Below are positions 6,623-27,684 of a DNA stretch of 46,988 nt, piece by piece; within the stretch, counting starts at the first letter, position 1; the number at the start of each line of letters is the position of its first letter. Source of the stretch: a virus. The stretch is from IMG/VR virus record IMGVR_UViG_3300026518_000002, positions 1-46,988 of that record. The stretch is one strand, 5' to 3'. Made by a program: the position numbers and the translations under genes. The notes under the pieces are model-generated. The model ran no database searches, had not been told where the DNA came from, and saw only the letters and a list, made by a program, of their open reading frames with translations.

Positions 6623-6847
6623 ATGAGTTTAAAAGATTTTAAAGCAATGGTAGCATCAGAAGTTAAAGTAAGTAAAGAGTATAAGTCTTACTTAAGTGTA
6701 GCACAAGAAGAAGGCATGTCATGGTATGCAGCTTCTAAGATGGTTATGGAGTATCTTAACGATGGTAAGAAACTTACAGCTAATGATTACAAAGAAATCA
6801 ATAAGTTACGTAAGTGGTACAATGAGTTATCAGAGGAAGAAGCATAA
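6623..6847 (+). CDS. Small unknown early protein (74 aa)
   Basis: The ATG follows AAAGGAT and starts 14 bases after the preceding mini-protein, so the two are probably co-transcribed. The protein is lysine- and glutamate-rich and predicted helical, with aromatic residues in the middle (MSWYAASKMVMEYL) and no recognised domain. Its stop codon sits inside a stable hairpin followed by a T-rich stretch, so it probably ends a short transcription unit. Confidence 0.72.
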   Translation: MSLKDFKAMVASEVKVSKEYKSYLSVAQEEGMSWYAASKMVMEYLNDGKKLTANDYKEINKLRKWYNELSEEEA

Positions 6848-6870
6848 GCTTCTTTCTTTATATTTTTAAA
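6835..6870 (+). terminator. Probable rho-independent terminator
   Basis: GGAAGAAGC (6835-6843) pairs with GCTTCTTTC (6848-6856) around an ATAA loop, with one G-T pair. The run TTTATATTTTT follows directly. The stem includes the end of the 74-residue gene. The U-tract is interrupted by two A residues, so termination may be partial. Confidence 0.6.
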
Positions 6871-6890
6871 TTTTAAGTAATAGTATAGGT

Positions 6891-6918
6891 TGTTTCTAAC
6901 AGAAACAGGCAGAAACAA
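6891..6918 (+). promoter_or_regulatory. TGTTTCT/AGAAACA dyad plus third half-site (operator or RNA switch candidate)
   Basis: TGTTTCT (6891-6897) is followed after 3 bases by its reverse complement AGAAACA (6901-6907). A second AGAAACA follows at 6911-6917. The first arm can pair with either copy, so this could be a 17-base operator with an extra half-site or a two-state leader hairpin ahead of the 238-residue gene at 6939. Confidence 0.45.
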
Positions 6919-6938
6919 GATTATAAAGGATAATAGAG

Positions 6939-7655
6939 ATGAAAACAGAAATTAAGACAGACGGTATAAGTAACTTCGCAGTTAGTAATGACTATAGTAA
7001 TTACACAGAGTTAGGTGGCAGAATGGTTCAGCGAACACCGGTTGAGAATCATCATGACTTAATGGTAATAGAGAAAGAGCTATCAGCAGTTGACAATGAT
7101 CAGTTCAGAAAGAGTTTGTATGCAGTACAAGGAGACAGAACAGAGTTCTACTCAGGAGATGATAAGATCAAGCTATCAGTTAGCAGTCAAGGTAAAGTGA
7201 AAGCAAAGTTAAAAGGTGTTGAGATCAGCGGAGTAAAGCGCACAGCAGTTTATATGTTGATATTAGAAACATGTCATGTATTAGATACTAATGCAAATGG
7301 AGATTGGAATATGTATGTATTCAGTCTTAATGGTAAATTCTACAATATAGGTTTTCTAGATGAAAATATAAATGCAAACTTCATGTCAAAGTATAATGAG
7401 TTCTACGACAACATAAACAATGAAGAGTATTATAAAGAGCTATTCAAGCAAAGAACAAAGCACTCGACAGATAAAGTAGCAACTGAGTTACATTCAGATG
7501 TATACGGTGATGCAGTGTCAGGGCTAGGTAGTATAGTAGAAGATCAGATAGAAGAGGATCTACTACAAGCATTAGAGATGCTAAGAGCATATAAGGATAC
7601 ACCACAGTTTACAGATATAAAAGCAGATTTAGAGGAGATAGTATGCAGCGCATAA
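6939..7655 (+). CDS. Unknown early protein (238 aa)
   Basis: The ATG follows AAAGGATAATAGAG. It opens a new transcript after the terminator and dyad at 6835-6918. The protein is soluble, acidic toward the C-terminus, and likely mixed alpha/beta; no catalytic or DNA-binding motif is visible. It is the largest gene at the front of the early block and is followed by a chain of tiny coupled genes, so it may be an early takeover protein, but this is inference from position only. Confidence 0.78.
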   Translation: MKTEIKTDGISNFAVSNDYSNYTELGGRMVQRTPVENHHDLMVIEKELSAVDNDQFRKSLYAVQGDRTEFYSGDDKIKLSVSSQGKVKAKLKGVEISGVKRTAVYMLILETCHVLDTNANGDWNMYVFSLNGKFYNIGFLDENINANFMSKYNEFYDNINNEEYYKELFKQRTKHSTDKVATELHSDVYGDAVSGLGSIVEDQIEEDLLQALEMLRAYKDTPQFTDIKADLEEIVCSA

Positions 7656-11716: not shown

Positions 11717-12244
11717 ATGGAAAGAAATGTTAAGCTAAAACCTCTACTCCAGAGTGATTACAAGATACCGTTGTTAGAAGACCTTGGCATGTTCGGAAAC
11801 AAACCGACAAGGACAAGATATGCAATGTTCAGGTGCCCTTACTGCGAGATTGCCTTTAGATCTGCGACGGCTAGCGCTAAGCATAAAGGTTTATCTTCGT
11901 GTAAAAGTTGTAACAAATACGTAATATCTACACACAACATGACAGGCACAAAAATTTATAACAAATGGGTTGCTATGAGATTCAGATGCAATAATGTTGA
12001 TGGTCCTTGGTATGAATATTATGGAGGAAGAGGAATAACAGTGTGCGAAGAGTGGGAAGACGATTTTGTATCTTTCCTAAATTATGTATCTTCTTTAACT
12101 AATTACGGGGTAAGTGGTTATACCATTGATAGAATAGATAACGATGGTAATTACGAGCCTGGCAATGTAAGATGGGCAGATGCTAAAACACAAAGTAATA
12201 ATAGGAGAAAACATGGCAAAGAAAGAGCAAGCTCTAGAGTCTAA
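11717..12244 (+). CDS. HNH-family endonuclease (175 aa)
   Basis: The N-terminal half has a zinc-binding pair CPYC (40-43) and CKSC (62-65). The C-terminal half carries the common phage pattern YNKWVAMRFRC, then YYGGRGITVCEEW, and ends GYTIDRIDNDGNYEPGNVRWA. This is the conserved signature of a large free-standing HNH endonuclease family. It lies between the helicase and VRR-NUC genes and overlaps the latter by 32 bases, so it is probably a mobile nuclease that has been captured in the operon. Confidence 0.82.
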   Translation: MERNVKLKPLLQSDYKIPLLEDLGMFGNKPTRTRYAMFRCPYCEIAFRSATASAKHKGLSSCKSCNKYVISTHNMTGTKIYNKWVAMRFRCNNVDGPWYEYYGGRGITVCEEWEDDFVSFLNYVSSLTNYGVSGYTIDRIDNDGNYEPGNVRWADAKTQSNNRRKHGKERASSRV

Positions 12245-12691: not shown

Positions 12692-12913
12692 ATGGAAGGT
12701 ATAGATTTAAAAGCAGAACTAAGAATGGATATGTTGCAAGAAGCTCGAGAAGAGTCAGTGCATGAGCATAGAATGTTTACAGATCAAGAGTATGCTGTAT
12801 CGCAGTTCTATAATGACATTGAGTCAGCTAAAGAAATTCTAGATAGTGTAAGTAAAAGCTTATCAGATTATGGATATGAAATGTCAATACAGGAGTTATT
12901 AGGTGAAGTATAA
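12692..12913 (+). CDS. Small unknown helical protein (73 aa)
   Basis: Follows four bases after the acidic protein, with AAAAGGATAG before the ATG. Rich in Glu, Ser and Met, predicted helical. No recognised motif. Its 3' end supplies the AGGAG and overlaps the GTG start of the dCMP-hydroxymethylase-like gene by 11 bases, so translation of the two is likely coupled. Confidence 0.62.
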   Translation: MEGIDLKAELRMDMLQEAREESVHEHRMFTDQEYAVSQFYNDIESAKEILDSVSKSLSDYGYEMSIQELLGEV

Positions 12914-13601
12914 CGAAACATATAAAAGTTTAATACGTAATGTATTAGACAATGGTAATTTACAAGAGTGTAGAAATGGTAAGAATTTAATCATACCATT
13001 TGCAAGTTTCACAATAGATCACGATGATTGGGAACTTAAACTGCGTAAGATGTGGTACAAAGGTGTTAAAGGCGAATTCGATACCCTTATGGACATAGAA
13101 AACCCTTTAACTAATGTTTCACAGTTTGAAGCTAATGGATGCCGCTACTGGTCTCTATGGAGTTCAGAAGATGGTAGTCTAGATTTAGATTATTACAACA
13201 GATTGCACCCTCAAATAGAGGACGTTATAGAGAACATCAAAACTGATAGATACTCTAGACGTCATGTCGTAGACTTATGGTCACATGATAATGTAATGTC
13301 AGGTAAACTATCACTAGCATGCTGTTGGTATAACTTAACATTATCAGTTATAGATGATACTATACATTTAGTATGGAATCAACGCAGTTGTGATCTAGCA
13401 ATTGGTTTACCGGCCGATGTATATCTAGGACATCTATTCTTAGAACATGTAGCAAAAGAAACTGGTCTTAAACCAGGTACTATGTCTTTTAACCTGTCAA
13501 ATTTACATTTATATTCTGAGCATATTGCAAATGCATCTAAACTGTTGTTAAGATCAACTGCAGATTATAATCAGCATATGTCATTTGAATTAAAGGAGTA
13601 A
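12903..13601 (+). CDS. Thymidylate-synthase-family enzyme, dCMP hydroxymethylase-like
   Basis: GTG start with CAGGAG seven bases ahead. All thymidylate-synthase landmarks are visible: the RR pair (119-120), the catalytic cysteine at 141 (ACCWYN, placed where TS has PCH), RSCD (161-164) and the H-x-Y pair near 202-204. The residue that reads the pyrimidine is Asp172 in GLPADVY; TS enzymes have Asn there (GLPFN), whereas T4 dCMP hydroxymethylase has Asp in the aligned FRND. It therefore probably acts on dCMP, hydroxymethylating or methylating it with methylene-tetrahydrofolate. The DHFR-like and MazG-like neighbours fit a nucleotide pathway. The exact product is unproven. Confidence 0.78.
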   Translation: MKYNETYKSLIRNVLDNGNLQECRNGKNLIIPFASFTIDHDDWELKLRKMWYKGVKGEFDTLMDIENPLTNVSQFEANGCRYWSLWSSEDGSLDLDYYNRLHPQIEDVIENIKTDRYSRRHVVDLWSHDNVMSGKLSLACCWYNLTLSVIDDTIHLVWNQRSCDLAIGLPADVYLGHLFLEHVAKETGLKPGTMSFNLSNLHLYSEHIANASKLLLRSTADYNQHMSFELKE

Positions 13602-13602
13602 C

Positions 13603-13965
13603 ATGAGTAAAATAACAGGAACTATCTTATTAGATAGACGGGATCACTATGTTGATGATGAAGGTAATTTACCTGAACGTCCGGTAGGTGATAAAGAATG
13701 GCTATCCGCTTTGGTAAAAGGTGCAATCATATCTATAGAAGCAGGTGAGATGCTACCACCAAGTATACGTGGATTAGCAGTAGCAATAACGTGTAGAGTA
13801 GAACCTACATGTCCAATTACTATACCAGAGATAGATGCTTTGTCAGATATCTTAATAGTAGTAAGAAGTAGCGACGTAACAATAATGTCAGGTAAGGTTT
13901 TTAAATTCCATAACTTTAACCTTATATTAACATCAAAGGAGATTGAGATATGGTGCAGAAAGTAA
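13603..13965 (+). CDS. Possible degenerate dihydrofolate-reductase-like protein (120 aa)
   Basis: The N-terminal pattern (an early strand, GNLPERPVGDKEWLSALVKGAIISIEAG, then LPPSIRGLAVAIT) follows the order of DHFR: G-x-LP-x-x-P-x-D, then the helix leading to the GRKT-like strand, then LP-x-x-x-R-x-x-V-x-T. At 120 residues it is shorter than a standard DHFR (about 160) and the glycine-rich cofactor motifs are not clear. The partner, a TS-family enzyme, lies immediately upstream, a common DHFR-TS pairing. The call is tentative. Confidence 0.4.
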   Translation: MSKITGTILLDRRDHYVDDEGNLPERPVGDKEWLSALVKGAIISIEAGEMLPPSIRGLAVAITCRVEPTCPITIPEIDALSDILIVVRSSDVTIMSGKVFKFHNFNLILTSKEIEIWCRK

Positions 13966-14078
13966 AAAAGAATTATGCCAATGAATGTTGGGATTGTGGA
14001 CTTGAATGGTTCTCAGAGTGTAAAGGTAAATGTTGTCCAGATTGTGGATCAGATAATGTATCAAGTTGTGGAGTATAA
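13950..14078 (+). CDS. Small zinc-ribbon protein (42 aa)
   Basis: AAAGGAGATTGAGAT precedes the ATG. Two pairs, CWDC (13-16) and CPDC (29-32), with a further CC, form a rubredoxin or zinc-ribbon-like knuckle. The start overlaps the end of the preceding gene by 16 bases and the stop lies one base before the MazG-like gene. Role unknown; perhaps an accessory of the nucleotide enzymes or a regulator. Confidence 0.68.
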   Translation: MVQKVKKNYANECWDCGLEWFSECKGKCCPDCGSDNVSSCGV

Positions 14079-14079
14079 A

Positions 14080-14367
14080 ATGATAGATAAGATAAGACAA
14101 TGGCATAAAGATCGTAAGATAACTGTCAATGGTAATAGCTTAACACAAACCGTAAAGCTAGGTGAAGAGTTCGGAGAGCTGTGCTCGGGCATAGTTCGTA
14201 AAGATAAAGCGGAGATACAAGATGCAATCGGAGATATGGTAGTAGTTCTAGTAGCAATAGCTGAGCTAGAAGGACTTAAATATGAAGACTGTATAGAATC
14301 AGCTTACAATGAAATTAAACATCGCACAGGCCATCTTAACGAACATGGCAATTATATAAAGGATTAA
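14080..14367 (+). CDS. MazG-like nucleotide pyrophosphatase (95 aa)
   Basis: The start at 14080 (ATAAAATG, ahead of MIDKIRQWHK) is chosen because the MazG fold begins there; a longer frame upstream merely overlaps the zinc-ribbon gene. The metal-binding motif is GEEFGEL (29-34), then QDAIGD with D48 and D52. Phage MazG-like enzymes hydrolyse dNTPs, and some act as dCTPases; here it might remove unmodified dCTP or alter the host nucleotide pool. Substrate is not visible from sequence. Confidence 0.83.
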   Translation: MIDKIRQWHKDRKITVNGNSLTQTVKLGEEFGELCSGIVRKDKAEIQDAIGDMVVVLVAIAELEGLKYEDCIESAYNEIKHRTGHLNEHGNYIKD

Positions 14368-14368
14368 T

Positions 14369-14731
14369 ATGGAACAGCAAGAAATTAAAGCGCGTATTGA
14401 AGCAATACAGTATATATTAGAAAATGATCTAATAGCAGAAGAAGCACTATCGGATGCTGAGGAAGAGCTGTACGAGCTATCGCACATGCTACCAGCAGTG
14501 GAGGGTGGAGCTAATTCTGAGGTTAAAGAAGATGTAACTCAGCCGTCACATTATAAAATAGGTATAGATGTATATGCAGCAGTTGCTAAGAATAAAGATG
14601 CGTACGATGGATTCTTACATCTTAATGCTACTAAGTATCTGCACAGATGCTATCATAAGCATGACACACCGGTTGATGATTTAGGTAAAGCTAAATGGTA
14701 TATAACTGAGTTATTAAAAGGATATGAATGA
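14369..14731 (+). CDS. DUF3310 protein (120 aa)
   Basis: Residues about 58-118 match DUF3310: PSHYKIGIDV, GFLHLNATKYLHRCYHK and DDLGKAKWYITEL. The family includes T7 gp1.7, a nucleotide kinase. The first 50 residues form an extra acidic helix pair (EAEEELYEL). Sits in the nucleotide-metabolism group. It overlaps the exonuclease gene by four bases (ATGA). Confidence 0.8.
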   Translation: MEQQEIKARIEAIQYILENDLIAEEALSDAEEELYELSHMLPAVEGGANSEVKEDVTQPSHYKIGIDVYAAVAKNKDAYDGFLHLNATKYLHRCYHKHDTPVDDLGKAKWYITELLKGYE

Positions 14732-15390
14732 GTTTAGGCATACTAAAAGATATTATGCTATTCGATGATCATCGTGATAGTACAGAGCCAAATGCGATTA
14801 GTATAACGACATTGCTTGGGCCAGCCTACAAAGCTAAACATTATCTTAACAAATCTGGTAAGTATGAGAACGACGATATTACTTTTAAAAGAAGTAGTTT
14901 CATCGGAACTGCATTTCATGCTAGAGCTGATATGATTACTAGAGATCGTGAAGATTACAAAACTGAAGAGTTCTTAGAACGTAAAGTCACAGTAGACGGT
15001 ATAGAATATACTATCTCTGGATCTTATGATGGCCTTAAACTTGTTGAAGGTAAGTGGTACATATTTGATTACAAAACTGGGTATGGTAAGACTCGTAATG
15101 AAGTAGCTTTACAAAAAGATGCAATGCAGATGTCACTATACAGATGGTTACTCGAAGAGAAGTATCCAGATATAACTATAGAAGATGAAGGATATACAAT
15201 ATTTGTATCACAATCTAATAATGTTATGGAAGAGATAGAAGTACAGCTAACTGATATACACAGTGTAGAAGACTTTATTGATGCTAAGATCTATATGATC
15301 GTGCACAATGAGAAGGTTGACTGTCACGAAGGTATCAAATATAATGGTTGTACATACTGTCCGTGGAATTGCCCAGAACGTAAGCATTAA
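14728..15390 (+). CDS. Cas4/RecB-like PD-(D/E)XK exonuclease (220 aa)
   Basis: The PD-(D/E)XK core is present: SGSYDG (Asp, about 97-102), FDYKTG with D-x-K (about 113-118) and QMSLYRWLL (the Q motif, about 134-142). The C-terminus has CTYCPWNC, probably part of an iron-sulphur cluster as in Cas4 and AddB. Such exonucleases generate 3' tails for recombination. It pairs naturally with the Sak4-like ATPase and the SSB-like protein downstream. The fourth cluster cysteine is likely C199, in DCHEG. Confidence 0.8.
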   Translation: MSLGILKDIMLFDDHRDSTEPNAISITTLLGPAYKAKHYLNKSGKYENDDITFKRSSFIGTAFHARADMITRDREDYKTEEFLERKVTVDGIEYTISGSYDGLKLVEGKWYIFDYKTGYGKTRNEVALQKDAMQMSLYRWLLEEKYPDITIEDEGYTIFVSQSNNVMEEIEVQLTDIHSVEDFIDAKIYMIVHNEKVDCHEGIKYNGCTYCPWNCPERKH

Positions 15391-15433: not shown

Positions 15434-15973
15434 ATGATGGATATTCCAGGATATGAAGGCCTATATACTATAGCCGAAGACGGTTTAGTATATGGGACTA
15501 AGCTAAAAACACCTTTGAAAGGTGGATGGACAAAAACTGATATAGGGTATAGGAGTGTATCTTTAACGAAGAACAAGATTAAGAAATCTTATTTGGTGCA
15601 TAGGTTAGTAGCTAAATGCTTTATACCTAATCCTTACGACTATCCAGAAGTAAACCATAAAGATGGTGATAAAACAAACAACAATGTAGAAAATTTAGAA
15701 TGGTGTTCGAAAGAACAAAACGCTAAACACTGGGTAAAAGAGTTGGGAGTTAAACCGTTTTCAAAAGAACGATTATCGCAATGTGCCGAGAATGGTAAAA
15801 GATATGGTGGAACTAACAAGGACGAAACAAGATCACTAACATTCGAGGTAGCTGAGTCTATCCGTGAACGTGTAGAATGTGGCGAGAAACAAAAAGATTT
15901 AGCAAAAGAATTTAATATTCATAAGTCTACTGTTAATGCCATTATAAAAAGAAGAACATACAATGAAGTATGA
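15434..15973 (+). CDS. HNH homing endonuclease (179 aa)
   Basis: This is an I-HmuI-like enzyme. A NUMOD4-type N-terminus (GYEGLYTIAEDGLVYG) is followed by HRLVAKCFIPNP and the HNH signature VNHKDGDKTNNNVENLEW (about 75-92). A C-terminal helix-turn-helix (QKDLAKEFNIHKSTVNAII) binds DNA. It splits the recombination gene group but has its own promoter ahead and a hairpin and TATAAT behind, typical of a free-standing mobile gene that inserted without breaking its neighbours. Confidence 0.88.
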   Translation: MMDIPGYEGLYTIAEDGLVYGTKLKTPLKGGWTKTDIGYRSVSLTKNKIKKSYLVHRLVAKCFIPNPYDYPEVNHKDGDKTNNNVENLEWCSKEQNAKHWVKELGVKPFSKERLSQCAENGKRYGGTNKDETRSLTFEVAESIRERVECGEKQKDLAKEFNIHKSTVNAIIKRRTYNEV

Positions 15974-21435: not shown

Positions 21436-24400
21436 CTAGTCAACCTCAGGCGTTCCGACGGGACCGCTACCGCTGCTCCATAGTTTTGGAGTGGCACCTA
21501 TACCTGTAGTATGATTTTTTAGTAGATCAGAACTTACAGTATTAGTTTCAAACATAGAAGATATATTATAATTGTTTGCTGACGATATATTTACATAAGT
21601 GTCAGGTCCAACTTTAGTCATTCCATGTTCCCTCATCCAACCATCAGACCCATTTTCAGGTAGCACATAGTATAAAGATTCTCTTGCAGCTATCATTCCA
21701 GCAAACATAGTCATAAGACCAGCTGAATTCTTATTAAGCGCATATCTTGTAATCTTAGGTATATTGTTAAAGTATTTCATGAATAGTACAACTTCATCTG
21801 CAAGTGACATCACATCAGTTAAGTTCTCTGCATAAGTAGGGAAGGCTAGCATAGTTTCTTCCATAGCTTGATCTGCAGATAACCCTTTACGTTTTTGATG
21901 TCTATAGAATGTAAGCTTTTGCTTTACTTCAGTTGAATCAAATAAAGAAGCTAAAGTATCCCCAGCTTTAGTACCTTCCATAAAGTTAGTAGACCTAATA
22001 TCATTTTCTAGTCCTGTATTAGACATACCAGCTAGCACATCAATGAATTGGTTTTGGTTAACCTTACCATTAGTTCTTACAGCATCTCTCATCATTGTAT
22101 CATGAGCACCTACCTTATACATAAACTCGTATATGTCAGGGTATTTAGATCTGGCTACTCTCATACCATCAGTTGACGCTATATTCATAAAGCTGCCTAT
22201 GTCTTTCATAGACTTGTCATTCTCAGTTAAGATCTTAGCTAGTGGCATCTTAGTAGTAAACGCAACTGTAATGTTATTAGCTACAGTGTTATTGATGTAT
22301 GATTTAAGTCTTGTAGTAAGCACTTTACTTTTAGCCATTCCTATAATACCTTGCATACTATTTACTATAGAAGCAGCATACTTATTAGTAACATCAATCC
22401 CCTTAGTACCGAATATATTGTGTGCATAACGTTTGTCTACAACATAATTAACACCGTTGTATCTAAATGTTCTTTCCCCTTTAGTAGCTTCAAATGAAGG
22501 TTTAATGATGCCTGCCCCTTTCATGCTAGCAACAAAATCATTGTTAGCTTTCTTACCAATACGGTTATGTATTAATGATCTGATGTTAGACATATATGCA
22601 TCAGCAACGTTCATCGAATAAGCATTCTGATTATTAATCATATCTGAATTCTTTAATGTAATCTCATACTTGCCTTGGCCAATCTTATTAACATTGAAGT
22701 CTTTAGTGTATCCTATGAACTCATCTTCTTTATTAGCATGTCTATAAAATAGTTTGTCATCAGATACTTTAATGTCCCTTGTATTGATCTTCATACTGTT
22801 GGTATTAGAATCAGCTATAGCTAAACCTTCTTGCTTACCAAGTGATGCTTTAGCCTCATCTATGACAACCATAAAGTCTTTTCCTATTCTATGGACTATG
22901 TTATCTTCATTCACTTCAGCATTTGTAGGAACTATCTTCAAAGGTCTATTCTTAGCTGATGCTTTATTAGCTGGGTTAAAACCAAACTGTCTAGTACTAA
23001 TACCCTCAGATTCAAGTTGTCTTGCAACCTTGCCCCATGAGCCAAGCATGTACTCAACTCCTTTAGGATTTTGTTGTATCATAGCACCGAGTTCATCTAC
23101 ATCAAGTTTACCATTTTCCATAGCAGCTTTAAGCCTTCTAGACATAACAGAACCGTCCATTTGACGTTGTAGTTTAGTCTGAACATCTAATGGAATATCA
23201 TCTATAAGATTTCTTACATCTTCAGGTTTAAGTTTTAGATCAGATATTGCTTTGTTATTAGATATAGTAGTGACAAGACCGTCTATAAAATCCTTAGTAT
23301 TAGTTGAAGAGAAGATAGCTCTTTTACCGTCTATCTGACTTATACCTTCTCTATAGAACTGCTCATCTGCAATGTGTTTAGCCTCCATGTGCATAAGTTT
23401 TTTGTCTTTGACATAAGCAGTTATCTCTTTCTTTAGCTTACCAACCTGATCAGCTTTGCTTTGTAATATACGGTTAAGTTCGTCTTCGACTTCTTTAATC
23501 TTAGTTAGGTGTTCATTTTTAACGTCTTGTTCAAGTCTACCGCCTTCACCCTCAGCGTCTATCTTATCTCTAAACTCGAGTGATTCAGAACTACCACTTG
23601 TAGTGATATCTGAAGTACCTTTACCACCACTATACTGTTTATTTTGGAATTCAATTACTCTTTTAAGTTCTTTAATACGCTTGTCATATTTAATGTCAAA
23701 CGTTTCTTCCAGCTTAGCATTAAGTTTCGAGGATATAAATCTAGTTATAAGTTCATCGCCATTAGCTTCAAATCGTTTAGGGTCGAATGTCTTTTTAAAA
23801 CTACTAGTGTCACTTCCTCTTAGAAAGTCTGCAATCTCTGATACTTTTACAATGTCAAGTAGTTGGTAACCTCCAGCATTAATGAACTCGCCCATAGATT
23901 CTAATTGTTTGTCTGACATATTGCCAGAGTTCTTTTCAAACTCAGATCTTATCTCAGCTTCCATTTGCTGCATACGTGCTTCTACAGCTTTAAGCTTATG
24001 AGAAGCTGCAATAGAAGTAAGGCGTTTAGAATCATAAGCAAACATACCATTAAGTGTTGGAGATTCCCCAACAAGATCATTAACAAAATCATCTACAGAT
24101 TTAAACAATGTATTGTGCTTAGATAAAGTATCTTTAATCTTAGTAACAGAATCTTTACCTATATTAGATGCATATACTTCGGAGATACTTCTATTAGCCC
24201 ACTTAGCAAAACCTGAGTGAGGATTGTTTAGAGTATTAACAACGTATGCTTCAAACTGTGCTGCATCTTTGTTGTCTAGTACTCTATCAGTTTGTACTTC
24301 AGATGATTTCATCTTCTTAACAAACATCTTAGGATTGCCTTCTAGCAGTCTTCTACGAACTGTGCTAGCCATAGCAGTTAGGTAACTTTCGTCTCTCGAC

Positions 24401-27400
24401 AGTTTATTCTTACCTGTTGCATCAGCAAATTGGTGAGCAAGTTCGTGGAGAACAGTAAGCATATTACTAGCATTAAGCTCACCTCCATTATTGAGGTATA
24501 TATTACCGCTTTCATCTATAAACCCACGTTTACCTTTAGCAATGTCAGATATACCTGGTATTGCATCAGTTGTATATATCTTTGTATCTTGTAAAAACCC
24601 AGATTCATTATTCATATACTTAGATGCATGCTTAGAAGGCTGGAATAATACCTGAGGTCCAACATCAGGCATTTCACCGGCAGTAGTAATAGTAGAGTCA
24701 ACGAACTTCTTCTCTACATCTGTGTATTTAGGAGTACCTTCGAGAGTATCTTTATAATTACGTAATAGAACATCATTAACGTCATGAACTGATACACCAG
24801 ATTTAGTAAGCTTATCTATATCATTACGTACAGTTACGGCTGCTCTGTCCACTAGCTGCTTAACCTTATCATCACCTATGGTTGCTCCGAACTTATCGTT
24901 AATTATATCTTTTATAGCGTTCTTATTAACCGTTATTTCCCCATCTTTAATCTGGAATAGGTTACTAGCTGCTCTACTAGAATACATATCTGTAGAAGTA
25001 ATGTGTGTAAGACCATCATCAGTTGTTATTAGTGTACTTTTTACACTACCGTGTTTTGTAAGTCCTGCTAACATATCTGCTTCTGCTGCGTCTATCTTGT
25101 AACCATTATTTATATAGTTGGTATAAGCATCTATTTGTTTATTGAATGGGTCACTGCCCTGACGGGTGCTTAGCTCTTTAACATTATTATATACCATTAC
25201 AAAGTCTTTATCAATAGCTGCTTTTGTATCGAGTGCGGCATAAGACTCTTTATAGGTAGTGCCTTTCTCAGAAGCTTTCTTTTTAATGTAAGATTCAACA
25301 TCTGCAGCTTTTTCTGCACCGGTTTTAATTCTAGTACCTTCATCTCCAGTAATATGTTCAGCGTTATATTTTTCGCCTTCTTTCTTTTTACGGTTAATAT
25401 ATTTGTGTGCTTCATCTATACTTGTAGCATCATTGCCTGTAATACGTTTGTATTCTTCAAGCACATTTTTGGTATCTATAGTATCATTAGCATAGTGCTT
25501 CTTAACAGGTTCAAGAGCATCTTTAAGCTTGCTCTGAGTATCTCTAATCTCTGATAACTCATCACCGCGCATTTTTATCTCTTCCATCTTGTCTTTACGA
25601 GCTTTGATATCCCCATAGCCCATCTTGTCAAGGTCTTCTTTAGCAGTTTTAAGTTCAGCCTCTTTAGCTGTTATATGTCCATTAAGTGCGGAATGCATCT
25701 CTCGTATATCTTTTAAACTGTTTGTACTACCAATATCCTTACCTTTTTTACTCATAAATGATTTAATAGCCTTGTTAGCTTCATCCATAAGATTTGATAC
25801 AGTACCATAAGTAATGTCAGGCTTTTTAACTTCAGCTTCTGCTTTAGCCTCTATAACAGCTTCATCGTCAACAGCTTTAGTAGTATTAGAGTTTTCTTTA
25901 TAATTTTCAAAAGAGTCTTTAGCTGTTTTACGCAGCTGTTCACCAGCTATCTCATGTAATCTTTTTTTATACTCTTTATTGAATTGTTTTTTAGACAACT
26001 TACCATTAGAAAAATCGTCTTTTAAACTATTAAGTAGCTTATCATCATAAGCGGCTTCTTTAGCTGCCTTAACTGCTTCTTCTTTAAATTGGTTAAGCAC
26101 TGCATCATCAGGCTTAGTTTTTCCGAAGTAGTCTTCTGCTAAATTACCATATCTATTAGAGTATAAAAGCTTATCTGATGGTGTATCTTTAAATATTTTA
26201 TCTAAAGTTGATTCATTAGCTTTTATAAAGTTATCTTCTGTTTTGCTAAAAGCAGATGAATCGCTTGACCTTGTAAGCTTAGATTTAGGTTTGCGTGCAC
26301 TAAAACCAGCAGTATCAATGATCTCTCTAGCGTACTCAAGTGCATTATTTTCATCTATCTTAACACCTTTATACTCTTCTTGAATCTTCATCATCATGTC
26401 ATCAATAGAATCTTTATCTGATGATATACTTTCAAGATGTTCTCTAATAGCTTTGTATGGTTTAGAATCTTTGCTAAGGTCTAAAGGTCTTCCTTCGTCC
26501 ATAGCAGTGTATAGGGATTCAACTTCAGGGCTTTCATCCATAAACTTTAAGTTCTGGTTTTTAAGATCTTTAATATCTGGTTGTGTTTCAGAAGGTTTCT
26601 TCTTTCCTTTAGCACCACCATTTAAACTGTTAACTATATAGTCTAGATCGGAATCACTGGCTTGTCCAGTTCGTTTAGCCTCTTCAAATGATATATATTC
26701 ATCAGTTCTAGCATCTCTTACTTCTATATCTTTAGGATTGAAAGTAGCTATACCATGTTTATTCTTTTTAATAGGAACTCTAGTAGCTTCTAAGTCCAGC
26801 CAGTCAACACCATTATCATCAGTATATTGCTTACCTTGATTAGCATCAATCTTTCTAGTAACATATTCAGAATCGAATCTAAGATCTTTACCTTTGTCTA
26901 TAACTTCTCTAGCACCAGATAAAGCTTCAGTTTCGTCAACAGCAGCCTTTGCAACTTTACGGTTAGCAAATTTTGCCATTGGATAACCAAAAGCTAAACC
27001 ACCACCAAGGTTCATAGCAGCAGAAGCATAAGGATTAAAACTTTCACCGTTATCTTCTACCTGAGAACGTATAGCATCGTAACCAATACCCATAGGAGTA
27101 GCTACAGTTTCTTGTGCTAAGTTTTCACCAAACACAGTTTTAGGTGAATCAAATGAAAGTTTCTTATTAGCAGTTTCTAGAGCATTAATTCTTGCTCCAT
27201 TATTAATTGGTAGGGAAGCTTCCATAGGCCCGTAAGCCATACCAGATAATCTATCCATAGCTGTTAAGTTCTCTTGAATAGCTTTTCTATTACCGATACT
27301 CTTAGCGATACTACCAGCACCCCGAACGGCCCTAGAACCTATCTTAGCAGCAGCTCCCCAAGCTGGGAGTAGTGTAGCAGCCTCACCAACGAATTGTCCT

Positions 27401-27684
27401 GTGCCACCCATTAAACCTGTATTATAATTAGTATTCTTTTCTTGCATGCCTTGTATACGTTGATCTTGTAATGATTTATCTCTCTGAAAAGCAGCAGGTA
27501 ATACTAAAGAATCTTCAGTACCTTTTTGAACACCTTGCCAGAAACCTCTACCGCCTTGCTGAGTTTGGACTTGTCCTACGTCCCACCAATTAGTATCTTC
27601 ATTACCGCCTGCCTCATAAGAATCAAGCATACCACTAGTATCTTTTAGTTGTATATCTTCTATATCTGGTAATTCTATATCCAT
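21436..27684 (-). CDS. Giant virion/polyvalent protein with zinc metalloprotease motif (2,082 aa)
   Basis: This is the longest gene. The N-terminus is glycine-rich with an amphipathic segment (LMGGTGQFVGEAATLLPAWG, about 92-111). A zincin motif, HELAH, lies at residues 1080-1084 inside MLTVLHELAHQFADATG, preceded by a GNIYLNNGG strand, as in metallopeptidase domains of phage polyvalent proteins. The C-terminal part (FPTYAENLTDVMSLADEVVLFMKYFN) resembles the large polyvalent protein-associated LPD38 type. Long stretches between are coiled coil. Probably an internal virion protein injected with the DNA. I find no RNA-polymerase motifs. Confidence 0.7.
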   Translation of the reverse strand: MDIELPDIEDIQLKDTSGMLDSYEAGGNEDTNWWDVGQVQTQQGGRGFWQGVQKGTEDSLVLPAAFQRDKSLQDQRIQGMQEKNTNYNTGLMGGTGQFVGEAATLLPAWGAAAKIGSRAVRGAGSIAKSIGNRKAIQENLTAMDRLSGMAYGPMEASLPINNGARINALETANKKLSFDSPKTVFGENLAQETVATPMGIGYDAIRSQVEDNGESFNPYASAAMNLGGGLAFGYPMAKFANRKVAKAAVDETEALSGAREVIDKGKDLRFDSEYVTRKIDANQGKQYTDDNGVDWLDLEATRVPIKKNKHGIATFNPKDIEVRDARTDEYISFEEAKRTGQASDSDLDYIVNSLNGGAKGKKKPSETQPDIKDLKNQNLKFMDESPEVESLYTAMDEGRPLDLSKDSKPYKAIREHLESISSDKDSIDDMMMKIQEEYKGVKIDENNALEYAREIIDTAGFSARKPKSKLTRSSDSSAFSKTEDNFIKANESTLDKIFKDTPSDKLLYSNRYGNLAEDYFGKTKPDDAVLNQFKEEAVKAAKEAAYDDKLLNSLKDDFSNGKLSKKQFNKEYKKRLHEIAGEQLRKTAKDSFENYKENSNTTKAVDDEAVIEAKAEAEVKKPDITYGTVSNLMDEANKAIKSFMSKKGKDIGSTNSLKDIREMHSALNGHITAKEAELKTAKEDLDKMGYGDIKARKDKMEEIKMRGDELSEIRDTQSKLKDALEPVKKHYANDTIDTKNVLEEYKRITGNDATSIDEAHKYINRKKKEGEKYNAEHITGDEGTRIKTGAEKAADVESYIKKKASEKGTTYKESYAALDTKAAIDKDFVMVYNNVKELSTRQGSDPFNKQIDAYTNYINNGYKIDAAEADMLAGLTKHGSVKSTLITTDDGLTHITSTDMYSSRAASNLFQIKDGEITVNKNAIKDIINDKFGATIGDDKVKQLVDRAAVTVRNDIDKLTKSGVSVHDVNDVLLRNYKDTLEGTPKYTDVEKKFVDSTITTAGEMPDVGPQVLFQPSKHASKYMNNESGFLQDTKIYTTDAIPGISDIAKGKRGFIDESGNIYLNNGGELNASNMLTVLHELAHQFADATGKNKLSRDESYLTAMASTVRRRLLEGNPKMFVKKMKSSEVQTDRVLDNKDAAQFEAYVVNTLNNPHSGFAKWANRSISEVYASNIGKDSVTKIKDTLSKHNTLFKSVDDFVNDLVGESPTLNGMFAYDSKRLTSIAASHKLKAVEARMQQMEAEIRSEFEKNSGNMSDKQLESMGEFINAGGYQLLDIVKVSEIADFLRGSDTSSFKKTFDPKRFEANGDELITRFISSKLNAKLEETFDIKYDKRIKELKRVIEFQNKQYSGGKGTSDITTSGSSESLEFRDKIDAEGEGGRLEQDVKNEHLTKIKEVEDELNRILQSKADQVGKLKKEITAYVKDKKLMHMEAKHIADEQFYREGISQIDGKRAIFSSTNTKDFIDGLVTTISNNKAISDLKLKPEDVRNLIDDIPLDVQTKLQRQMDGSVMSRRLKAAMENGKLDVDELGAMIQQNPKGVEYMLGSWGKVARQLESEGISTRQFGFNPANKASAKNRPLKIVPTNAEVNEDNIVHRIGKDFMVVIDEAKASLGKQEGLAIADSNTNSMKINTRDIKVSDDKLFYRHANKEDEFIGYTKDFNVNKIGQGKYEITLKNSDMINNQNAYSMNVADAYMSNIRSLIHNRIGKKANNDFVASMKGAGIIKPSFEATKGERTFRYNGVNYVVDKRYAHNIFGTKGIDVTNKYAASIVNSMQGIIGMAKSKVLTTRLKSYINNTVANNITVAFTTKMPLAKILTENDKSMKDIGSFMNIASTDGMRVARSKYPDIYEFMYKVGAHDTMMRDAVRTNGKVNQNQFIDVLAGMSNTGLENDIRSTNFMEGTKAGDTLASLFDSTEVKQKLTFYRHQKRKGLSADQAMEETMLAFPTYAENLTDVMSLADEVVLFMKYFNNIPKITRYALNKNSAGLMTMFAGMIAARESLYYVLPENGSDGWMREHGMTKVGPDTYVNISSANNYNISSMFETNTVSSDLLKNHTTGIGATPKLWSSGSGPVGTPEVD

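Follow-up and report, generated by a model that had tools for sequence, protein, structure and literature searches.

The locus described here raises the question of whether a viral protein of the thymidylate synthase (TS) family makes dTMP from dUMP or modifies a cytosine nucleotide and, if the latter, whether its product carries a methyl or a hydroxymethyl group. The window, meaning the whole stretch of DNA that was analysed, corresponds to a virus record 46,988 bases long, with 36.1 % G+C; it contains terminase, portal and primase genes, and its source is a virus infecting bacteria. The ORF in question (12903–13601, plus strand) encodes 232 amino acids from a GTG start codon, with AGGAG at 12891–12895, seven bases upstream. 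Downstream genes on this strand are tightly spaced, each lying a few bases from its neighbour or overlapping it.

Membership of the TS family is clear from matches to Pfam PF00303 (E 1.2e-33; 116.8 bits against a curated cut-off of 24.3) and PHROG 160 (E 1e-42). Alignment showed a complete catalytic set, consisting of Cys141 (codon 13323–13325, preceded by Cys140, which is likewise invariant), Glu58, the Arg pair R119-R120, RS.D (R161-S-C-D164) and HxY (H202-x-Y204), together with the motif G168-L-P-A-D172. All of the motifs that the first-pass annotation had listed for this 232-residue protein (RR pair, Cys141, RSCD, H-x-Y and GLPAD) were confirmed. An AlphaFold (AF2) model of the protein (pLDDT 96.2) could be superposed on E. 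coli TS (complex 4gev) with Z 28.4 and 1.5 A over 224 residues (VIA), and structure comparison identified E. coli TS as the nearest TS fold. T4 gp42 was absent among the best 50 VIA matches listed, which is no evidence against similarity; PDB chains 9iqc and 9iqu, which are short TS proteins, came up together with T4 gp42 in a search. Compared with E. coli TS, the window protein is without about 30 residues ahead of the C-terminal tail, and its scores are far under the curated cut-offs of the NCBIfam thymidylate synthase equivalogs (82.9 of 327 bits and 63.9 of 108 bits). Searches for a second TS homolog found none in the window and none in the 43 records checked, and no ThyX turned up in the window.

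Substrate preference was assessed from Asp172 (codon 13416–13418), at the pyrimidine-specificity position. The earlier claim of an Asp at this position held when residue 172 was aligned with T4 gp42 and TS: it lies unambiguously opposite D179 of gp42 and N177 of E. coli ThyA, and Asn at 177, the mark of a thymidylate synthase proper, is absent from the window protein. Asp was present in all 85 aligned clade sequences, a set comprising the window protein, cultured relatives (PH1, KF-1, VPMS1, Amaethon, Kolga and two Manatee Spring phages, with 31–38 % identity to the window protein) and environmental virus sequences. This invariance indicates that Asp172 is no accident. The claimed effect of an Asn-to-Asp change in TS is backed by published mutagenesis, as literature cited in PMC8670742 describes mutants at the 177 position whose preference shifts from dUMP to dCMP and whose product is 5-methyl-dCMP. 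The MetaGPA survey of environmental samples found Asp177 TS proteins to be associated with cytosine-modified viral contigs, and the domains tied to modified contigs include TS, PRA-PH, dCMP deaminase and DNA ligase (PMC8670742). At position 147, which MetaGPA treats as discriminating, the window protein and its nearest kin have Trp and most of the wider clade has the TS-like His. The alignment, the invariance of the Asp, the confident model, the mutagenesis and the MetaGPA data together support dCMP specificity, and dCMP is most likely the substrate of the window enzyme.

The nature of the product was approached through signature residues. Hydroxymethylases carry Asp (or Glu) at −3 from the catalytic Cys and Ser or Thr at −2 from the catalytic Tyr, and in T4 gp42 Trp83 of TS is replaced by a small residue and the C-terminal tail is missing (PMC6400193). 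The T4 D145N mutant is inactive in hydroxymethylation, and T4 Ser94, which has been equated with E. coli Val93, orders the reaction waters (PMC6400193). Asp at −3 was observed in every hydroxymethylase compared, three of them biochemically proven and two assigned by kinship: T4 gp42, SPO1 gp29 (a dUMP enzyme), YuA gp17, a Vi1-like enzyme and the CMP hydroxymethylase MilA (PDB 5b6d), for which the alignment reads NIDVAC. The same residue is Leu in E. coli TS, Asn in AXL1, DLP4 and PaMx28 of the Xp12 genus, and Leu in all 85 sequences of the window clade (Leu138 in the window, codon 13314–13316). Trp83, the water-excluding tryptophan of TS, is kept in 82 of the 85; the window protein reads Leu95-Asp96-Tyr97 where hydroxymethylases have Ser-x-Tyr; and a TS-like C-terminal tail is present, with residues 4–232 of the model aligning to residues 1–264 of E. 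coli TS (VIA). Leu at −3, Trp83, the Leu-Asp-Tyr motif and the tail all point to reductive methylation. A search for the carbamoyltransferase C-domain, a sign of 5-hydroxymethylcytosine, gave nothing in the 43 records, nor was any glycosyltransferase found among the window proteins scanned. The first-pass annotation had allowed for either 5-hydroxymethyl- or 5-methylcytosine in the phage DNA; with no hydroxymethylase signature, the T4-like half of that proposal loses ground and 5-methylcytosine is the favoured product.

Phylogenetic reconstruction gathered the clade of the window enzyme into one group (support 95/91) to which neither E. coli TS nor the SPO1-type hydroxymethylases belong; the Xp12-genus enzymes likewise stand outside it, in a separately supported group of their own (100/99). 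T4 gp42 is attached to the window clade only through a very long and weakly supported branch (87/69), which is not taken as a sign of kinship. According to the alignment, a TS-family protein of Alishewanella phage Slickus01 (L012, 1983–2888) reads GLLFA, with Ala in place of Asn or Asp at position 177.

In Xp12, 5-methylcytosine replaces all cytosine, and of 31 enzymes only 5 cut AXL1 DNA (PMC9206674). Xp12 (MT664984) is represented here by its genus mates AXL1, DLP4 and PaMx28, the residues compared being theirs. Their enzymes share with the window enzyme an Asp at 177 and a residue other than Asp at −3, and the gene setting is also alike: in the Xp12 genus TS lies near genes for a pyrophosphohydrolase, a dCMP deaminase and a DHFR, the window has DHFR-like and MazG genes, and its relatives have the deaminase. 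Unlike the window enzyme, the Xp12-genus enzymes are 298–313 amino acids long, have Asn at −3, Phe at the Trp83 position and Pro at 147, and form their own clade. T4 gp42 has the TS family, Asp at the 177 position and the catalytic Cys, Glu and paired Arg in common with the window enzyme but differs in Asp at −3, Ser-x-Tyr, Val at the Trp83 position and the lack of a C-terminal tail. E. coli TS shares the fold (Z 28.4), Leu143, Trp83 and the tail, whereas its natural Asn, the roughly 30 further residues of its C-terminal part and the Cys-Cys and Asp-Tyr motifs peculiar to the window protein set the two apart. The E. coli N177D and L. casei N229D mutants carry the single key change seen in the window and methylate dCMP. 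The TS proteins of KF-1, PH1, VPMS1, Amaethon and Kolga are clade mates with D177, L143, D93 and the Cys-Cys motif, but they are 31–38 % identical to the window protein, with a longer C-terminal part and His at 147. A polymerase gene adjoins TS in several of these phages, and literature titles on KF-1, ETP-1, VPMS1 and Kolga show no obvious restriction digestion result.

The gene after TS (13603–13965, plus strand) encodes 120 amino acids and had been noted as DHFR-like. By itself the frame gave no Pfam match and no PDB sequence match, and direct homology to phage DHFR was rejected when profile comparison with the DLP4, PaMx28 and AXL1 enzymes revealed none; the affinity to DHFR emerges only from relatives and the fold search. 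The model is weak (pLDDT 65) and its Foldseek matches are nearly all DHFR (best E 2e-3), the homologs L040 and L041 reach PF00186 (E 5e-4 and 2e-4), and L041 reaches DfrC among the NCBI profiles (0.0035). At least 13 proteins make up the family, and 12 are encoded in relatives (L002, L015, L017–L022, L024, L040, L041 and L058; 112–137 amino acids), where 11 of the 12 genes lie directly after TS and that of L002 about 0.7 kb further on. The folate-side motif GxLPxRPxxD is kept in the window protein, and the NADPH-site Gly-Gly is missing from it as from all 13 aligned members. The frame is read as a putative degenerate DHFR fold with the folate-side motif retained and the NADPH Gly-Gly lost, and the family may serve as a folate-binding partner instead of an enzyme. 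A DHFR partner would suit a methylase better than a hydroxymethylase because the former makes DHF and the latter releases THF (PMC6400193).

The next frame on the plus strand (13950–14078) encodes a Cys-rich, zinc-ribbon-like product of 42 amino acids in the slot occupied by a dCMP deaminase in most relatives. It is followed by a MazG/PRA-PH-type NTP pyrophosphatase of 95 amino acids, a possible dCTPase (14080–14367, plus strand; PF03819 E 1.8e-6, PF01503 E 1.4e-5). The MazG-like enzyme of the earlier annotation is real, but its 130-amino-acid frame (13975–14367) starts too early and overstates the gene, because the first 35 codons overlap the 42-amino-acid frame in another phase; an in-phase ATG at 14080 comes after the stop codon of that frame. 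The DUF3310 protein, resembling the C-terminal part of T7 gp1.7, was found as described (14369–14731, plus strand; PF11753 E 1.8e-9), and a PD-(D/E)XK nuclease belongs to the same operon (14728–15390, plus strand; PF12705 E 3e-11). The nucleotide-metabolism genes are flanked on one side by an HNH_3 endonuclease with HTH (15434–15973) and on the other by a second Cys-rich frame (11717–12244) that by eye resembles a similar mobile nuclease. A very long frame of 2082 amino acids lies within the structural region (21436–27684, minus strand).

The operon is conserved in the eight nearest relatives (53–59 % identity), with MazG in all eight, the DHFR-like gene in seven and a dCMP deaminase between the two in six. 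Most of these deaminases are fused to a dATP/dGTP diphosphohydrolase N-terminal domain, and fusion deaminases lie beside the TS gene in L015 (7037–7621), L018 (7027–7638), L019, L020, L021, L041 and L022; the fusion (PF00383 with PF18909) was shown for L015 and judged by eye in the other relatives. A DNA ligase gene is also found nearby in relatives of the window. Each of 41 clade records has exactly one TS homolog, and a carbamoyltransferase C-domain occurs in none. A single dCMP deaminase is encoded in 39 of the 41, and in 37 of these its gene lies no more than 3 kb from TS. A search of the window revealed no dCMP deaminase; its TS-family enzyme therefore cannot depend on a phage deaminase. 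In L016 the DHFR slot (6703–7239) is taken by a gene for a deoxynucleoside monophosphate kinase (PF21448) and in L077 by a gene, directly after TS, that is kinase-like by eye; both encode candidate 5-methyl-dCMP kinases.

The explanation that we favour, with a somewhat better than even chance of being correct, is that the window enzyme is a dCMP-specific TS-family member acting as a dCMP C5-methylase and giving virion DNA with 5-methylcytosine, as in Xp12. The phosphate would be held by Arg119/Arg120 and Arg161, Cys141 would attack C6 of dCMP, and Asp172 would recognise and protonate the cytosine ring. Methylene-THF would be activated by Glu58, and hydride transfer from THF would yield 5-methyl-dCMP and dihydrofolate. 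The 5-methyl-dCMP would be converted by kinases into its triphosphate, MazG may remove dCTP and so give dCMP back to the methylase, and incorporation of 5-methylcytosine by the phage polymerase would protect the DNA from restriction. On the sequence evidence, 5-methylcytosine probably takes the place of part or all of the cytosine in the viral DNA, which would shield the virus from bacterial defences. Several observations weigh against a methylase: the −3 rule derives from three proven hydroxymethylases and two placed by kinship, most of the wider clade has His at position 147, where the window protein and its nearest kin have Trp, the DHFR-like protein without its NADPH motif may fail to regenerate THF, and the window yielded no deoxynucleotide monophosphate kinase.

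A further observation against the methylase is Asp96 (codon 13188–13190), directly before the catalytic Tyr97, which is invariant in all 85 clade sequences and occupies the position of E. coli Val93, at or beside that of T4 Ser94, where it could activate water in another way. For this reason we retain, as unlikely but deserving weight, a dCMP hydroxymethylase like T4 gp42 in which a carboxylate other than Asp145, perhaps Asp96, activates water to give 5-hydroxymethylcytosine DNA. The short window protein and its Asp at the specificity position resemble gp42, but Leu138 stands where all hydroxymethylases compared have Asp, Trp83 and the tail are kept, and neither the carbamoyltransferase search of 43 records nor the glycosyltransferase scan of window proteins returned a candidate. 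A thymidylate synthase of the ordinary kind, tolerant of Asp and converting dUMP to dTMP during infection, would fit the fold nearest to E. coli TS and the TS-like Leu143, Trp83 and tail, and is improbable: N177D-type mutants switch preference to dCMP (literature cited in PMC8670742), the Asp is strictly invariant over 85 divergent proteins, and the scores fall far under the NCBI thymidylate synthase cut-offs.

Slightly less probable again is a methylate-first route to dTMP, in which dCMP would be converted to 5-methyl-dCMP and then to dTMP by a co-encoded dCMP deaminase, leaving the virion DNA unmodified. The frequency of deaminase genes near TS and the absence of a second TS homolog are in its favour, but the window keeps the TS-family enzyme without a deaminase, and the same deaminase occurs in the Xp12 genus, where Xp12 DNA is modified. 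The least probable of the readings considered is a widespread viral dTMP route without dUMP, formed by dCMP methylase and deaminase, with 5-methylcytosine DNA as the alternative where the deaminase is absent, for example in the window.

That phages with modified cytosine naturally carry TS proteins with Asp177 has already been published. What is new here is a sequence test that separates methylase from hydroxymethylase and its application to a large clade that includes cultured phages and is mostly annotated as thymidylate synthase. Many phage proteins that carry a thymidylate synthase annotation, those of KF-1, PH1, VPMS1, Amaethon and Kolga among them, probably act to modify cytosine. If this is true, full 5-methylcytosine genomes, best documented in Xp12, would be common among environmental phages.
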